In this document: one piece after another, positions 1 to 26,425 of the stretch | How positions within the stretch are numbered: position 1 is the stretch's first letter | How the letters are laid out: each line of letters begins with the position of its first letter | Source: a virus | Length of the DNA stretch: 27,186 nucleotides | Virus record (IMG/VR): IMGVR_UViG_3300036792_000277 | Span: 1 to 27,186 of that record | Direction: 5' to 3' (one strand) | Notes under the pieces: generated by a model | The model's database searches: none | Seen by the model: the letters and a program-made list of their open reading frames with translations, nothing else | What the model was told of the DNA's origin: nothing | Made by a program: the position numbers and the translations under genes

Positions 1-696
1 GGCGCAAGCGCACGCGATCAAAAGCGCGATGTCTCTGGCGACATCCACGTCCGTGGTGAGATTGAAGTAACGGTTCCCCCAAACGTTATCAAGAAAAACG
101 ACGCCGCAGATGAAAAGAAGGAAACCAGAGACCGCAAACGCTATCGACTTGAATTTGTGGGTCTGATCGCTGTCATCATCTACGCTGGCTTGACCTTTTG
201 GCAGGCGTATCTCACACGTGAACTCGTGAAGAGCGGCCGTCTTTCCACTCGTCCATATGTAGGAGTAGATTCAATCGGCGTAGGGTTTCGCAATCATAGG
301 CCAAACGGGGACAGCTTCCTCGGACAGAACCTTGATGACACAACTGATGCCTTCCAATGGTCTCCCGCGATAAAGAACTTTGGAACTGTCCCCGGTTACA
401 ACGAAGTCGGATATCAGAGAGTATTTATCAACAATGTTGAGTCTCGTTGGTACGAGAAAACACCAGACAAGCCGGGGATAATATTCCCGGGTCAAACAAT
501 ACTTCTTCTCAGTCACACTGGCACTAAAGAATGGCCTGGAATCAGGAACGGAACAGATACCTTGAATTTGGACATTCACATCGAATACGACGGAAACGAT
601 AAGGATAAGAATGAACACTACACATACTGCGAGAGACTTCAGTACTCGACGAGAGCCGCTAAATTTATGAACTTGGGTCCGGTCTGCGCTAAATGA
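1..696 (+). CDS. Membrane-anchored hypothetical protein, 5'-truncated
   Basis: The frame is open from the first base of the window to the TGA at 694-696, so the true start lies to the left; the GTG at 157 falls inside the transmembrane helix and is unlikely to be the start. About 52 charged residues (many Lys, Arg, Asp) precede one membrane helix at about 157-220, which contains VGLIAVIIYAGLTFWQAYL. A soluble domain of about 155 residues follows, beginning RPYVGVDSI and looking beta-rich. One N-terminal helix followed by such a domain is common among uncharacterised bacterial proteins, and I cannot assign a function. The gene converges on the minus-strand gene ending at 732, with a 35-bp gap that has no clear terminator. 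It could be host or phage accessory DNA. Confidence 0.7.
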   Translation, partial: GASARDQKRDVSGDIHVRGEIEVTVPPNVIKKNDAADEKKETRDRKRYRLEFVGLIAVIIYAGLTFWQAYLTRELVKSGRLSTRPYVGVDSIGVGFRNHRPNGDSFLGQNLDDTTDAFQWSPAIKNFGTVPGYNEVGYQRVFINNVESRWYEKTPDKPGIIFPGQTILLLSHTGTKEWPGIRNGTDTLNLDIHIEYDGNDKDKNEHYTYCERLQYSTRAAKFMNLGPVCAK

Positions 697-731: not shown

Positions 732-1193
732 TCATTCCTCCAGGAGTTCCTCAATCTTCTTGACCGCCTTTTTCCAACTAATATGCAGCTCGACGGTCAG
801 GCTTTCTAGAGCCTCGATCGCGGCCTTAGGTGCATGCTGCGTCTTCAGGTAGGCCTTCAGGATGTCGATGTCGTCATCGAGCCGCTTCAGATTCTCATCT
901 TTGACCTCGGCGACGCGTTCCAGCACCTCGCCGGCGTCGATCAAGGACTCAGGGTCGGTGAAAGGGTTCGAGGTTCTGACTGGAGGCTTGCGCTCAACGA
1001 AGGTCAAGTTGTCGACGCGTTCGCGAAAGCGCTGCATGTTGGTTCCCGGGACGTGGAGGTCAACCTCCTTGCCTCCGTAATGTACGTTGGAGATTTCGTA
1101 GGTCAACACAGAGCGACCGGGCTTCACCTTGTCGCCGACCTGGGGCTGGGGTGTGGACTCAGGGGTACCGGCTTTTTTGAGGGTTTTAGCCAT
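732..1193 (-). CDS. Hypothetical protein, 153 aa
   Basis: This is a soluble protein starting MAKTLKKAG. The N-terminus is Pro/Lys-rich and disordered, followed by a short beta-like domain (about residues 20-70, VGDKVKPGRSVLTYEISNVHYGG) and a charged helical C-terminal half (about 85-153, rich in Glu, Lys and Leu) that could form a helical hairpin or coiled coil. There is no signal peptide or membrane segment, and I do not recognise the family. It lies 13 bp downstream of the exported proteasome-like gene on the same strand, so the two may be cotranscribed. The ribosome binding site is weak (GAG close to the ATG), which fits coupling to the upstream gene. Confidence 0.65.
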   Translation of the reverse strand: MAKTLKKAGTPESTPQPQVGDKVKPGRSVLTYEISNVHYGGKEVDLHVPGTNMQRFRERVDNLTFVERKPPVRTSNPFTDPESLIDAGEVLERVAEVKDENLKRLDDDIDILKAYLKTQHAPKAAIEALESLTVELHISWKKAVKKIEELLEE

Positions 1194-1206: not shown

Positions 1207-2079
1207 TTATTTCCAGACGTCTGGACAGACGGACTTACGCTTCAACCAAGAAGCACCTGTCGGCCCAAGCAGAATAATGTCAGTTTCACCGCCAACAGCG
1301 AAGGTACCGTTGTCTTGTTTCGATGTGGGAGCCACAATGGTCATAAATTCTACTGCATTTGCTTCCTTTTGCTTGAAATCTCCTGGTTGGTCAATTGACC
1401 CAAGCAACGGTTTGAACGCAGCATTAGAACCAACCAGTCGAGACCAATAAGTTTGCTGTTGCCGCAATTCCTCAAGGTCTCCGTACCTCAATCCGTATGC
1501 CTGAGAGCCTTTATCTCCTTCGATGAATCGGAGATTTCTCAGCCAGACGGGTGTTGATGAAGTAGCGGTTGAATCAGGGGTATCCACTATCTCAAATGAA
1601 GACCTCACGAACACTACATTTCTGTTGTCGTCTACTGTAGCGAAAACGGCTTCGATGGGACTCAAGCCTGGAGCCTCGGAGCGGAGTTGAGGATTCAACA
1701 TTGAAGCGTCCAGTTGCGCAATCACCCAGGTATTCCAACGTTTTGCGACCGACATTAAATCCTTTCGCGTATGAATTGGTTTTTCCCGAACCAGTTCCGC
1801 AGCCTTTGCAAAGAAACTATTATCATCGCGGCCAATCCCTCCGATCCCGGCTTCCGTGAATATCGTTTTGCCGTCGACCTTAATGATTTTGCATGTCTGA
1901 TAGGTGGTCATGTTCCTAAACGTCATCGCGCTATCGGCTGCGAAGAGAATCTGGTTATCAGTTGGCAGAGCAAGGACCGCAGTACCGTGACTGTATTGGG
2001 ATAAAGCAGAAGAATTCGTTGCAACAAGCGCCATATGCAATCCAACGATTGCGACTCCCAGCTTTCTCATGTCGGGCAT
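1207..2079 (-). CDS. Exported Ntn-hydrolase (proteasome/HslV-like) protein
   Basis: The N-terminus is a Sec-type signal (MRKLGVAIVGLHMALVA then small residues). Just after it comes HGTAVLALPTDNQILFAADS, which aligns with the start of proteasome beta and HslV subunits. If the Thr of G-T is Thr1, then Asp17 of the AADS motif falls at exactly the proteasome spacing, and a Lys (TCKIIKVDGK) lies one residue from Lys33. A C-terminal GGETDIILL segment resembles the family's closing GG motif. Seen: the motif order and spacing. Known: Thr1, Asp17 and Lys33 form the proteasome active site. Inferred: an exported, self-processing Ntn hydrolase of unknown substrate. I chose the second of two adjacent ATGs because GAGGA then lies 5 nt upstream; 2082 is the alternative. 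It is AT-richer than the phage genes. Whether it is host or phage accessory is unclear. Confidence 0.6.
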   Translation of the reverse strand: MPDMRKLGVAIVGLHMALVATNSSALSQYSHGTAVLALPTDNQILFAADSAMTFRNMTTYQTCKIIKVDGKTIFTEAGIGGIGRDDNSFFAKAAELVREKPIHTRKDLMSVAKRWNTWVIAQLDASMLNPQLRSEAPGLSPIEAVFATVDDNRNVVFVRSSFEIVDTPDSTATSSTPVWLRNLRFIEGDKGSQAYGLRYGDLEELRQQQTYWSRLVGSNAAFKPLLGSIDQPGDFKQKEANAVEFMTIVAPTSKQDNGTFAVGGETDIILLGPTGASWLKRKSVCPDVWK

Positions 2080-2386
2080 CATCTTCCTCGCTTTGAACTG
2101 AAAAGTGTAATCACTCTGGATACCAGCCCCTTACGTCTCGCTGAATCTTCGGCAGCAAGCTCTTTTATCCTTTTGTTATACCGGCGCTTTCCGCAGCTTC
2201 AGCCTCGGTGTTAGATCATCCCTCGATTGATTCGCGGCATGTGGGCATTTGGGTCGAACATGGAAACAGTATAGGCGAAGAAAAAGAGAATAAATGCCGG
2301 ACAAATTTCCTACTTTTAGAAAGGTTGCCGTTTGCGGGTCCCGTAGAATAAGGCGTATATTGTGATTGTTATGGAGAGTATGTAAA
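2080..2386. other. Divergent intergenic region, no gene seen
   Basis: About 300 bp separate the minus-strand exported gene from the plus-strand gene at 2387. I find no convincing ORF or RNA gene. It is AT-rich around 2270-2325 and should hold promoters for both directions. Confidence 0.5.
2332..2361 (+). promoter_or_regulatory. Possible sigma70-like promoter
   Basis: TTGCGG (2332-2337), an 18-nt spacer and TATATT (2356-2361) lie about 25 nt before the ATG at 2387. The hexamers only moderately match consensus, so this is a weak call supported mainly by position. Confidence 0.3.
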
Positions 2387-3332: not shown

Positions 3333-3360
3333 AAGCCGCCTCCGAAGAGGCGGCTTTCTT
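3333..3360. terminator. Bidirectional Rho-independent terminator
   Basis: A perfect 10-bp stem (AAGCCGCCTC / GAGGCGGCTT, 3333-3342 with 3347-3356) has a 4-nt loop. On the plus strand it is followed by TTTCTT. On the minus strand the loop is C-UUCG-G, a very stable tetraloop, and the tail is TTGTTTGTTT. It ends both the plus-strand accessory operon and the minus-strand late operon. Confidence 0.9.
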
Positions 3361-3414: not shown

Positions 3415-4206
3415 TTAAAGGGCGAATTTGCAAGCGCCCCACGCGGCGACTTGGCTTTCTATTGTTCCGGAGACTGAGTTGATAAATCCAACCTCTGCGA
3501 TGCCGGAGTTCCAGAAATCCCCTACTCCGAACGCCGCGCCTACTTCATCAACGTTCGTGCTGAGTGCGCTCACCACCGTCGCGGTTGCGTCCGTCGTACA
3601 ACTTCCGCCTGCGCAAGTCTTCAGTGTGGCTAGGCCGGTACTCTGGTTATATTCAGCCAACAGCAGGTGATATCCGGCAGTAAGGGTTGCGCCCTCAACA
3701 AGACCAGCTATGCCCTGATTCAGCAGCAGCGACTTACCGCTGTCCATTCGCCACTCAAGACACCCGCTTGAAAACGAGCAGCCGATGATCGCGTGTGATC
3801 CACTTGGGTTGCTCGGGACGTTCACCACGGCGTAGTAGGTCCACGAGACATTCGAGGAAGAAAGCGGTGACGTAATTGGAAACAGGCTACCTGTTCCGTT
3901 AAATGTTGCTGCTGCAAGGCCGTTGATCTGCCCAGTTGTGTAGGTAGGCTTGCTACCGGAAGGCTGGCTCAGAGTATTCCCTCCCGCCGGGTCCACCACC
4001 TGCTCGATCTGCATGCCATTGGTGCAGGTAACTCCTCCGGTACAAGTATTTGGCGGAGAGGCATACATCGGCCACCGGTTCGTCATCGTGGGAGGAGTGC
4101 AGGTTCCAGAAGGCGGGTTGAAATTCTGCCCGAAGAACACTGCATTCTGAGACAGCAAAACGCCGGGCCAGAAGATCAAGAGGAGCATTGCGATTAGTTT
4201 TCTCAT
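3415..4206 (-). CDS. LamG/concanavalin A-like protein with signal peptide (fibre cassette)
   Basis: This 263-aa protein starts MRKLIAMLLLIFWPGVLLSQ, a Sec signal with likely cleavage near residue 19. The remainder is rich in Gly, Ser, Thr and Asn and reads as a jelly-roll: ATFNGTGSLF, WTYYAVVNVP, ARSGGHAI-like and WNSGIAEVGF segments are typical of LamG-like laminin/glucanase folds, ending VAAWGACKFAL. Cys pairs (for example residues about 36-61 and 140-150) would suit disulphides. AAGGA lies 6 nt before the ATG. It is the last gene of the late operon, 10 bp after the fibre gene, and is followed by the terminator. A role in binding host surface glycans is inferred from fold and position. The signal peptide is unexpected for a virion protein. 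Confidence 0.7.
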   Translation of the reverse strand: MRKLIAMLLLIFWPGVLLSQNAVFFGQNFNPPSGTCTPPTMTNRWPMYASPPNTCTGGVTCTNGMQIEQVVDPAGGNTLSQPSGSKPTYTTGQINGLAAATFNGTGSLFPITSPLSSSNVSWTYYAVVNVPSNPSGSHAIIGCSFSSGCLEWRMDSGKSLLLNQGIAGLVEGATLTAGYHLLLAEYNQSTGLATLKTCAGGSCTTDATATVVSALSTNVDEVGAAFGVGDFWNSGIAEVGFINSVSGTIESQVAAWGACKFAL

Positions 4207-4215
4207 GAGCTGTCC

Positions 4216-5502
4216 TTAGCGAAGATTTCCGTAGCAGTTTGTGCCGTCGTAAATGAAGGCGAGGATGTTGATAGCCGATGCAGTGGTGTTCAGAGCGAGA
4301 GTGGTGAGCGAAGTGAAGCCGGTCGACCCGCCCTGCTTCCACGTGCAACCGGTTCCGAGTGTCGCCGTCGCCCCGCCCGTTGAGTCTTGTTTGAAGACGA
4401 GGACGTAGCTTCCACCGTTGACCAGACCGGTTAGGTTGATCGAGCGCGTAGAAGTCGTATGGACCAACGTCACGGTCGAATTTGAGATGAGCGCGGATGC
4501 AATTGCCCAGGTCACCGAAGCTCCGTCGGTCAAGGTGCTGAACGAAGGACTCGCCGTTCCGATACCGCCCTGTGCTACTGGTAGCGGCGCTGCCAGGTGA
4601 GTCACCGTGACCTGGTTCGACGTATTAATGTCCGAGCCAGTTCGAGCAATGCTGGGGCCGCAGGTAACTGATACTGCACCGGCTGATGTAGTGCAGTCGC
4701 CAGTCAGAGCAGGCATCTGCGTCGCCGCGGCGCTGCCAGAGATGTCAGCGAACGTAGGTTGAGACGCTGTGAAGCCGCCGGTTGCGCTGTTGTATGAAGT
4801 GAAGAAGTTATGCGCTACGGCAGACAGAGTCGAGGCCAGTACGGTCGAGCTCGGCAGGTAGGCGTTCGCGTTGGTCGCCGCCGCCGTTCCGAATGATCCG
4901 CCCGCGTACGAAGTGAGAGACGACGAAGTGACATTCGGTGCGAGTGTTGTGCCGGAAAGCGTTCCAGCAGGAGCTACGACGGCGCTGGTTGACACCGCAG
5001 TTGCTCTTCCCTTCCCGTCGTACGTGACGACCGGAATGGCAGATGGCGAGCCAAAGGAACCGACGTTCGAGTTCACAGTCGCCAGCGTGGTTGCGCATAG
5101 TGAACTGGTGACGTCGCCAGTAAGGGAAGGAAGCTGTCCGCAGCCCGCCGATCCAGAGAGGTTGTTGAATGCCAGGCTGACGATACCCGTCTGACCATTG
5201 ACTGATTGGACTGGAGAGGCTGGCGTGAGAATCTGCTGCCAGTTCGCAAGCGTTGACGCCGGTGAGTTCTGAAGGATGTAAGTCGTATTGGTGTCCGACC
5301 GGATAGCCACGTCACCTATCGTCGCCGCCAGAGCCAGCATTGCTGACTGAGAGGTAACCACGAAGGTTTGATCGATGGCTATAGGTGGCAGTTGAGAAGA
5401 GGGCAGTAAGCCGCTGGAGTCCAGAGAGGCATAACCATTAGGCTGACCCTTTGCAGAGCTTGGCTGTGAAGCATTCGCAGTTGCCTGGGCCGCCAGCATC
5501 AA
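4216..5502 (-). CDS. Tail fibre, C-terminal part (frameshifted from upstream ORF)
   Basis: About 428 residues of repetitive fibre sequence rich in Ser, Thr, Ala and Gly. Repeated segments of the type [11 protein letters not shown] and [11 protein letters not shown], and [11 protein letters not shown], are characteristic of long phage tail fibres, and a C-terminal beta domain (about 330-428) ends [13 protein letters not shown]. The nominal TTG/ATG start at 5502/5499 has no Shine-Dalgarno. The first residues ([14 protein letters not shown]) continue the sequence expected after the TAFDA of the upstream collagen-like ORF. One extra G at 5493/5494 explains the break. I therefore read this as the distal part of one 750-aa fibre, separated by a natural mutation, a sequencing error or programmed slippage. 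Confidence 0.75.
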
Positions 5503-6475
5503 ACGCGGTGGACGGCTGAGTCGCAGCTGACCCTAGTCCCAGGTTGGACCGGGCAGAGGAGACGCTGGCGAGATCGCTCAGGTTGTTCGCTGTCTGTGCA
5601 GCTCCCACGATGCGAGGGTCATTGCCTTCTGCGGCAGTGTTTGCCGTCGAGCCATAGGTCACGGTGCCGTTGCCGCCGGAACCAGCCGGTCCCTGAGGAC
5701 CAGTGGCACCCGTCGCGCCCGTCAGACCGATGGGGCCTTGTGCTCCAGTCGCACCCGTCAGACCAATGGAACCTTGGGCACCCGTCGCACCTGTCGTTCC
5801 GGTTGCTCCTTGTGGTCCAGTCGCACCGGTGAGTCCGATCGGACCTTGAACACCTTGAGGTCCTGTGGCTCCGGTGTCACCTTTCGGTCCAGCAGGACCA
5901 ACAGGTCCGACGCCACCCGCACCCGTACCGGAACCCGTCACGAGGACAGGAACGCCGCCGACACACATATATAAGAGACCACCGTCTAGATTCTGAACAT
6001 AGAACGACGGACTCACACATGTGCTGGGAGGCGCGGCGGTACCGTACGACACCTGGATCGGTTCGACGTTGGTCGTCTGGGCAGGGGGAGCATACGCGTC
6101 AAGAGCCCACGTAGCGCCGGTGATGTTCGGCACCGCAGTGAGAGTGAACGCTCTCTGCGCGGCAGTATTCGTAATCTGGATCGAATAGAGAAGGTTCGGA
6201 GTATTCGTCAGAGCAGCGTCAGGAATCTGGCACGCGCCTGTGATTACGCCTGAAACGATCGTGCAGGAATAGGAGTCTGGAGAGTTCAGTCCGCCGCCGC
6301 CCTGCTCAAACGCAATCGGGATCCCAGCGAGATTCACGGGAGTGAACGTAACTGTGCCGGCGGCGATTGTCTTTCCACCCATTTTGATGGAGCTGGCGGT
6401 GATGGTGGTCAGCTGTGCATGAGCGGCGCCGAGCGCGCAGACGAGCGCGACGGCTACTTTGAGTAGTCGATTCAT
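5438..6475 (-). CDS. Collagen-like tail fibre protein with signal peptide, N-terminal part
   Basis: The 345-residue ORF starts with a Sec signal, [20 protein letters not shown], cleaved after A-H-A. A beta-sandwich-like domain follows (about 21-180, starting [17 protein letters not shown]) with Cys residues at 71, 82, 153 and 171. Residues 188-267 are collagen-like Gly-X-Y repeats ([17 protein letters not shown]). Residues 270-326 ([25 protein letters not shown]) are a classic fibre stem that normally runs on as FDAAxxA. Here the frame changes after FDA, and the last 19 residues (with Cys-Glu-Cys) are probably nonsense. AGGAG lies 4 nt before the ATG. Collagen-like stems form trimers, so a trimeric host-binding fibre is inferred. 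The signal peptide is atypical for a phage fibre. Confidence 0.8.
5675..5914 (-). repeat. Collagen-type Gly-X-Y coding repeat
   Basis: About 27 Gly-X-Y triplets are encoded here, with near-repeated DNA units coding for [10 protein letters not shown]-like peptides. The DNA similarity between units makes the array prone to slippage or recombination and hence to length variation of the fibre. Confidence 0.85.
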
Positions 6476-25540: not shown

Positions 25541-26425
25541 ATGAGCCTGCTTCCGCACCTGGACATTCCGCAGAATACGGATATCCCGATCAAGATATTA
25601 GAATCGCTGTTGTCCGCGGTTGCGATAAGTATGGTCAAACCTTTTCTTACCGAGATTCAGAGTGTGATTGTAAGAAATAGGAAACGCGATCTCTATAAAG
25701 AACTTGCTGAGGCCAATATTCAGAGCAGAGAATTGAGAATCGCGGCGCGAGAATCTCAAAGCAGTCCGTCAGAGCCGATTGTGCGGTCTCTAAAGAAACG
25801 GAAAGACAAAATACTCGGCGCGATAGCCCAGCTTGAGTCCGAGGAAGAATTTAGGGCAGCGAGAAATAATCGAGTACTAACCCGTACAAGACAGCTTGCT
25901 TTGTGGTTTGTTCCCCGCGGCCATCGATCATGGTTCTTGCACATTGCATATTATTTTGTCATCTTGGAATTACTCCAGAATTCGAAAGCGCTTCTGCTGC
26001 TTGTCAGAGGTATGCGACTTCTGAAATGGGACCTCGTATACACCATCACATTTTACTCATTGTCCACAATAGACCTGGTGTCATCCATAGCAGCTTGGAT
26101 AATTATTGCTTCATTCGTCGGTCACGTGGCACTTGAAAGACAATATGGTGACTCGAAAATACGGGCAAAGACCGAATGGGTTGGCCTAAGGCATAAACGC
26201 ATTGTGAAGATCGTTTCTTATGTCACGATTTCTTTGAATTTAATTCAAATGGTAAGTTATCTCATTTGGCTTGGACACGGCACGCATAACGACAATAGAC
26301 TTGATTTCATTTGGAAAGTCACTTTTCCCGTCAGGGCCATCTTTCAAAGCGCTTGGCTCATTTACATCCTCTTGCAAATGCGCAAGACGTCGAGAAGTCA
26401 AGGTCAAGTGGCCGTGACCCCGTGA
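25541..26425 (+). CDS. Multi-TM membrane protein with coiled coil (moron candidate)
   Basis: The 294-aa protein starts MSLLPHLDIPQNTDIPIKIL. An N-terminal hydrophobic stretch (SLLSAVAISMVKPFL) is followed by a charged coiled-coil-like region (about 45-108) and four membrane helices: HIAYYFVILELLQ, TIDLVSSIAAWIIIASF, IVSYVTISLNLIQMVSYLIW and FQSAWLIYILLQM. It is on the opposite strand to the whole late operon, AT-richer than its neighbours and has its own promoter, as is typical of morons. No family was recognised. A role in blocking superinfection or altering the host envelope is possible but unproven. Confidence 0.65.
   Translation: MSLLPHLDIPQNTDIPIKILESLLSAVAISMVKPFLTEIQSVIVRNRKRDLYKELAEANIQSRELRIAARESQSSPSEPIVRSLKKRKDKILGAIAQLESEEEFRAARNNRVLTRTRQLALWFVPRGHRSWFLHIAYYFVILELLQNSKALLLLVRGMRLLKWDLVYTITFYSLSTIDLVSSIAAWIIIASFVGHVALERQYGDSKIRAKTEWVGLRHKRIVKIVSYVTISLNLIQMVSYLIWLGHGTHNDNRLDFIWKVTFPVRAIFQSAWLIYILLQMRKTSRSQGQVAVTP

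Follow-up and report, generated by a model that had tools for sequence, protein, structure and literature searches.

A tailed-phage accessory gene for a probably exported, distant relative of the proteasome subunits

Characterised relatives of the proteasome are, to our knowledge, cytoplasmic and mostly paired with ATP-driven unfoldases; HslV (ClpQ), e.g., is a cytoplasmic protein of ~175 residues that has HslU as its partner. Ntn hydrolases that are exported include the penicillin/AHL acylases and gamma-glutamyltranspeptidase, in which self-cleavage frees the N-terminal nucleophile. Proteasome homologues have been described in phages, i.e. PPH and AAH (Fuchs, Alva and Lupas 2021, PMC8665760), PPH being ~140 residues in length and lacking helix H2; among the PMI families treated in the same work, PMI-4 is likewise present in phages, and PMI-2 to PMI-6 have an insertion in the H3/H4 region. 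The catalytic triad Thr1/Asp17/Lys33 and the oxyanion hole Gly47 are named in that study (Fuchs et al. 2021, PMC8665760), the main text of which nowhere mentions secretion, a signal peptide, a signal sequence or the periplasm, including for the PMI families. Searches of the open-access literature turned up no report of a proteasome homologue, bacterial or phage-encoded, that is exported.

The stretch of DNA analysed here (the window) is a virus record of 27,186 bases with terminase, portal, capsid and tail genes that form an HK97-type head/tail cluster, its minus-strand order being terminase, portal, major head protein and tail-fibre-like genes. The favoured interpretation, which is considered rather probable, is that one of its genes is tailed-phage accessory cargo encoding an exported, distant Ntn hydrolase of the proteasome superfamily; the best reading of the sequence includes predicted Thr-type, ATP-independent hydrolysis. 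The open reading frame (1207..2082, minus) encodes 291 residues from the first of two adjacent ATGs, or 290 from the second, at 2079. A purine-rich, ribosome-binding-like stretch, GAGGAAG (2083..2089, minus), lies directly 5' of these codons, with its GAGG 6 nt upstream of the second ATG, which is the likelier start because the spacing is better there. Residues are nevertheless numbered from the first ATG (2082). A first-pass annotation had placed the gene at 1207-2079; the open reading frame is real and 2079 is its second ATG, but the coding strand is the minus strand and the first ATG is at 2082.

The N terminus, Met2-Ala26 (2005..2079, minus), resembles a signal peptide in sequence and hydropathy, with a short charged start (MPDMRK), a hydrophobic core of ~14 residues (peak hydropathy 2.4 over 12 residues) and a Ser-Ser-Ala cleavage-like end; no stretch comparable to this core was seen in the hydropathy of the rest of the protein. 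The signal-like segment stops ~7 residues ahead of a Gly-Thr pair, the intervening LSQYSHG (Leu27-Gly33; 1984..2004, minus) lying between the predicted signal-peptidase site and the residue equivalent to Thr1, with Gly33 conserved. The first-pass annotation had proposed a signal peptide and then GTAVLALPTDNQILFAADS; GTAVLALPTDNQILFAADS is present, and the segment before it does have signal-peptide character. In the homologue described below, a hydrophobic signal-like segment occupies the same place before Gly-Thr, yet is unrelated in sequence. From the N-terminal sequence and its recurrence in the homologue, we infer that the window protein is exported. Cys64 and Cys286 (the latter at 1225..1227, minus) are its sole cysteines and both are kept in the homologue; a disulfide between them is possible and would suit an exported protein.

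By alignment, the candidate nucleophile Thr34 (1981..1983, minus) corresponds to Thr1 and Asp50 (1933..1935, minus) to Asp17, which bears out the 1/17 spacing that had been noticed previously. Lys65 (1888..1890, minus), directly preceded by the conserved Cys64, corresponds to Lys33 and is the lysine that had been noticed near 33; a one-residue gap in the loop before it puts it at 32, rather than 33, counted from Thr1. Once this gap is allowed, Gly79 (1846..1848, minus), a further active-site residue that had not been pointed out before, aligns with the oxyanion-hole Gly47, and the same residue is present in both family members.

Membership of the proteasome superfamily is supported by several profile comparisons. 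In a whole-Pfam scan PF00227 matches residues 31-82 with E=6.7e-4, at 19.8 bits and thus under the curated cut-off of 22.4; when only the window record was scanned, the value was E=4.8e-6. No Pfam family at its curated cut-off, and no NCBIfam or PHROGs family, claims the protein, the sole NCBIfam hint being HslV (E=0.023). In a single-sequence search the best PDB sequence was PSMB5, with 34% identity over a 62-residue stretch, at a value (E=0.33) that is non-significant alone. With a profile made from the two family members, searched against 177,635 PDB sequences, all 30 matches at E<=10 were proteasome beta subunits; since the best E-value was just 0.025, the weight of this result lies in its unanimity. 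A weak second match of the profile covers a C-terminal GG-D strand, in the correct order. Comparison by HHalign with an alignment of bacterial beta subunits and HslV gave 94% probability and a score of 51.7, as against a maximum of 21.2 among 100 column shuffles and 16.6 for the reversed profile; alpha subunits gave 0.3%. Searched against 5,813 open reading frames, the profile recovered its own members and then HslV only, and in 398 Bacillota genomes it gave five matches, four of them HslV and the other an unrelated open reading frame. The significant matches to proteasome families fall chiefly in the first half of the protein. Taken with the conservation in the homologue, the PF00227, two-member profile and HHalign results agree with the original suggestion of an exported, proteasome-like protein, as far as sequence comparison can indicate.

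Structure prediction was less informative. AlphaFold models had low confidence, with a mean pLDDT of 32 without an alignment and 39 with a thin one, although the strand and helix order of the latter (six strands, two helices, two strands, further helices, two strands) is compatible with a beta subunit. For the low-confidence model Foldseek returned no significant match, and VIA-align returned many proteasome, HslV and Anbu chains at Z<=3.6, with a PPM phosphatase higher at Z 5.8; the models lack the quality needed to assign a fold, and neither result was taken as evidence.

The homologue came from a degenerate DNA pattern scan of viral sequences with GT-x10-hydrophobic pair-x-AAD[ST]-x2-T, for which one of the 51 matching stretches was a true relative. 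It is a 341-residue protein encoded within a different, 74.6-kb record (L106:9114-10139), which has portal, tape-measure, head-protease-like and tail-assembly genes and is therefore also a phage. The pair aligns along the whole mature length at ~25% identity (BLAST E=5e-8), with a Smith-Waterman score of 89 against a best of 53 in 300 shuffles. Common to both are Gly(-1), Thr1, Asp17, Lys33 and Gly47, the spacing in the homologue being exact, together with Cys-Lys-Ile at position 32-34 and a C-terminal VGG-x-x-D...L...G..WL.RK..CP motif. Thr34 and Asp50, the two residues whose loss from homologues would have counted against the first-pass proposal, are thus conserved in one distant homologue only, and conservation throughout this family of two known members means conservation within that pair.

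Single-sequence searches with the window protein found no relatives in viral contigs, in genome contigs or by tblastn of phages and plasmids, and a search with the protein aligned to the PSMB5 stretch found none either; tblastn of plasmids with the homologue as query gave chance-level matches only. A C-terminal pattern scan returned only the L106 record again, and rescanning with the two-member alignment, a procedure of low sensitivity that missed the known homologue too, confirmed none of 70 stretches. No member was seen in 395 Bacteroidota, 296 Actinomycetota or 398 Bacillota genomes, or in one Granulicella plasmid. The 13 stretches retrieved with an HGT-type pattern were all unrelated, as were two weak matches in Bacteroidota (L039 and L040).

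With respect to genome setting, related soil-type virus records have the same order of HNH endonuclease, terminase, portal, capsid and tail genes, and the proteasome-like gene was not found in those searched. Its GC3 of 0.48 is close to that of the other accessory genes on the plus strand or in terminal position (0.49-0.51) and unlike that of the main genes for head, tail and packaging (0.59-0.71). A two-way, terminator-like hairpin of 10 bp (3333..3356, no strand assigned) separates the accessory region from the block of tail genes. The low GC3, the flanking hairpin and the absence from related records suggest that the gene is mobile accessory cargo. An open reading frame of 153 residues (732..1193) follows on the same, minus, strand, beginning 13 nt after the stop of the proteasome-like gene; it has a GC3 of 0.73, gave no match in the family scans and is possibly co-transcribed with that gene. 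The window has no alpha subunit or AAA ATPase; there was no PF00004 match in it and no Walker A motif in its open reading frames of >150 residues, a result which, the record being incomplete, covers neighbouring genes only. With PADLOC, neither the proteasome-like protein nor its neighbours in the window had a convincing defence match.

Several other features of these records merit mention. Near the proteasome-like gene, each phage encodes a protein with a single membrane segment at its N terminus (window 1-696, plus; L106:8150-8998); that the two phages share this neighbour was not supported, the similarity of the two proteins being within the shuffle range. Two adjacent short open reading frames of 95 and 100 residues in the low-GC region (2366-2959, plus) have a toxin-antitoxin-type look and gave no family match in the scans made. 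Two open reading frames that close the structural block on its tail side (3415-4206 and 5438-6475, minus) have signal-peptide-like starts, which is odd for phage tail proteins, and one of them carries a collagen repeat (PF01391). An open reading frame of low GC3 with hydrophobic stretches (25541-26425, plus), inserted next to the terminase genes in the opposite orientation, is absent in related phages and is likely another cargo gene. In the second phage a DNA cytosine methyltransferase adjoins a Vsr-like repair endonuclease, beside a transposase-like open reading frame (L106:3205-4798, minus). A 1414-residue open reading frame elsewhere (L177:7148-11392, minus) has portal matches interrupted by a segment with matches to intein-bearing families (thymidylate synthase, PhoH-like and ribonucleotide reductase PHROGs), and is probably a phage portal protein with an intein; L177:14462-15994 has similar matches.

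Alternative explanations concern the location of the protein, its fold and the origin of its gene. The N-terminal hydrophobic stretch might be left uncleaved, giving a membrane-anchored protein of proteasome fold with a binding or scaffold role, in which Thr34 is never freed. Some proteasome relatives, the alpha subunits, are indeed inactive, and the off-by-one lysine register would fit such a protein, but this is unlikely in view of the signal-peptidase-like Ser-Ser-Ala ahead of the Thr and of the retention, at such low overall identity, of all five residues from Gly(-1) to Gly47, a degree of conservation that would be difficult to account for in a non-catalytic protein. Propeptides are possible in beta subunits and HslV, and export is not part of the description of any characterised proteasome homologue cited in PMC8665760, such that the hydrophobic N terminus might be the propeptide of a cytoplasmic protein; the combination of charged start, hydrophobic core and small-residue end, repeated in the homologue by unrelated sequence, makes this quite unlikely.

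A different-family Ntn hydrolase, or another alpha-beta-beta-alpha protein, with its proteasome likeness confined to the first strands, would accord with the concentration of significant matches in the first half and with the PPM phosphatase as top VIA-align match of the weak model; it is very improbable, however, given that the PDB profile matches are all to proteasome beta subunits and extend, weakly, to the C-terminal GG-D strand in order. For the window copy, which comes from an incomplete record, capture of terminal host DNA would explain why the gene lies close to the record end, has a GC3 unlike that of the phage core and is missing from related phages. By contrast, the gene that follows it on this strand has a phage-like GC3 and the second copy sits inside a phage record, with portal, tape-measure and tail genes, so that a host origin, too, is unlikely.

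If the protein is an exported Ntn hydrolase carried as phage cargo, a Sec-type signal peptide would take the chain across the cytoplasmic membrane and signal peptidase would cleave after Ala26. The chain may then fold and, as the conserved Gly-Thr suggests, self-cleave at Gly33-Thr34 in the manner of proteasome beta subunits, shedding LSQYSHG; the freed Thr34, together with Lys65, Asp50 and the Gly79 oxyanion hole, would, judging from their conservation, attack an amide or peptide bond. There is no ATP outside the cytoplasmic membrane, so an unfoldase partner is unlikely and the protein should act without one. It might act on peptides, on envelope proteins that are unfolded, or on a single specific substrate. 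For the phage, the likeliest benefit, albeit speculative, is a changed envelope of the infected or lysogenic host; that two different phages carry such a gene points to a role in phage-host contact. It may even be, though this is somewhat more doubtful than probable, that the two proteins represent an undescribed, phage-spread branch of the proteasome superfamily for extracytoplasmic work, in which a signal peptide replaces the propeptide, there is no ATPase, and one or a few host envelope proteins are cut or joined during infection or lysogeny. An exported protein of this type would have to function in the absence of ATP, and would reveal whether the fold is capable of serving as a free-standing peptidase or ligase. 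Retention of the Thr1/Asp17/Lys33 set means that standard proteasome inhibitors, together with a Thr34Ala variant, could test the idea directly.

Compared with 20S beta subunits (PF00227), the window protein has in common the Gly-Thr site, Thr1/Asp17/Lys33/Gly47, AADS and Thr21, as well as, by profile alignment, the helix pair after the Gly47 strand and, close to the C terminus, the GG-D strand; it differs in having a signal-peptide-like N terminus instead of a propeptide, a longer second half and carriage by a phage. Likeness to HslV is apparent in that the family profile finds HslV over the N-terminal half of the latter. The other exported Ntn hydrolases, by contrast, are of different families from the window protein and none was among its matches. 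As with PPH and AAH (PMC8665760), a proteasome homologue is found in tailed phages, but the ~258 residues that follow Thr34 put the window protein well outside the PPH size. The extra residues it has, by eye, in the H3/H4 region are reminiscent of PMI-2 to PMI-6, and it may be an exported offshoot of PMI or AAH. The first-pass annotation had called an exported version near phage genes unexpected; as PPH and AAH are described in phages (PMC8665760), the phage setting is less so than was claimed, whereas the export signal that the sequence appears to encode is the new element.
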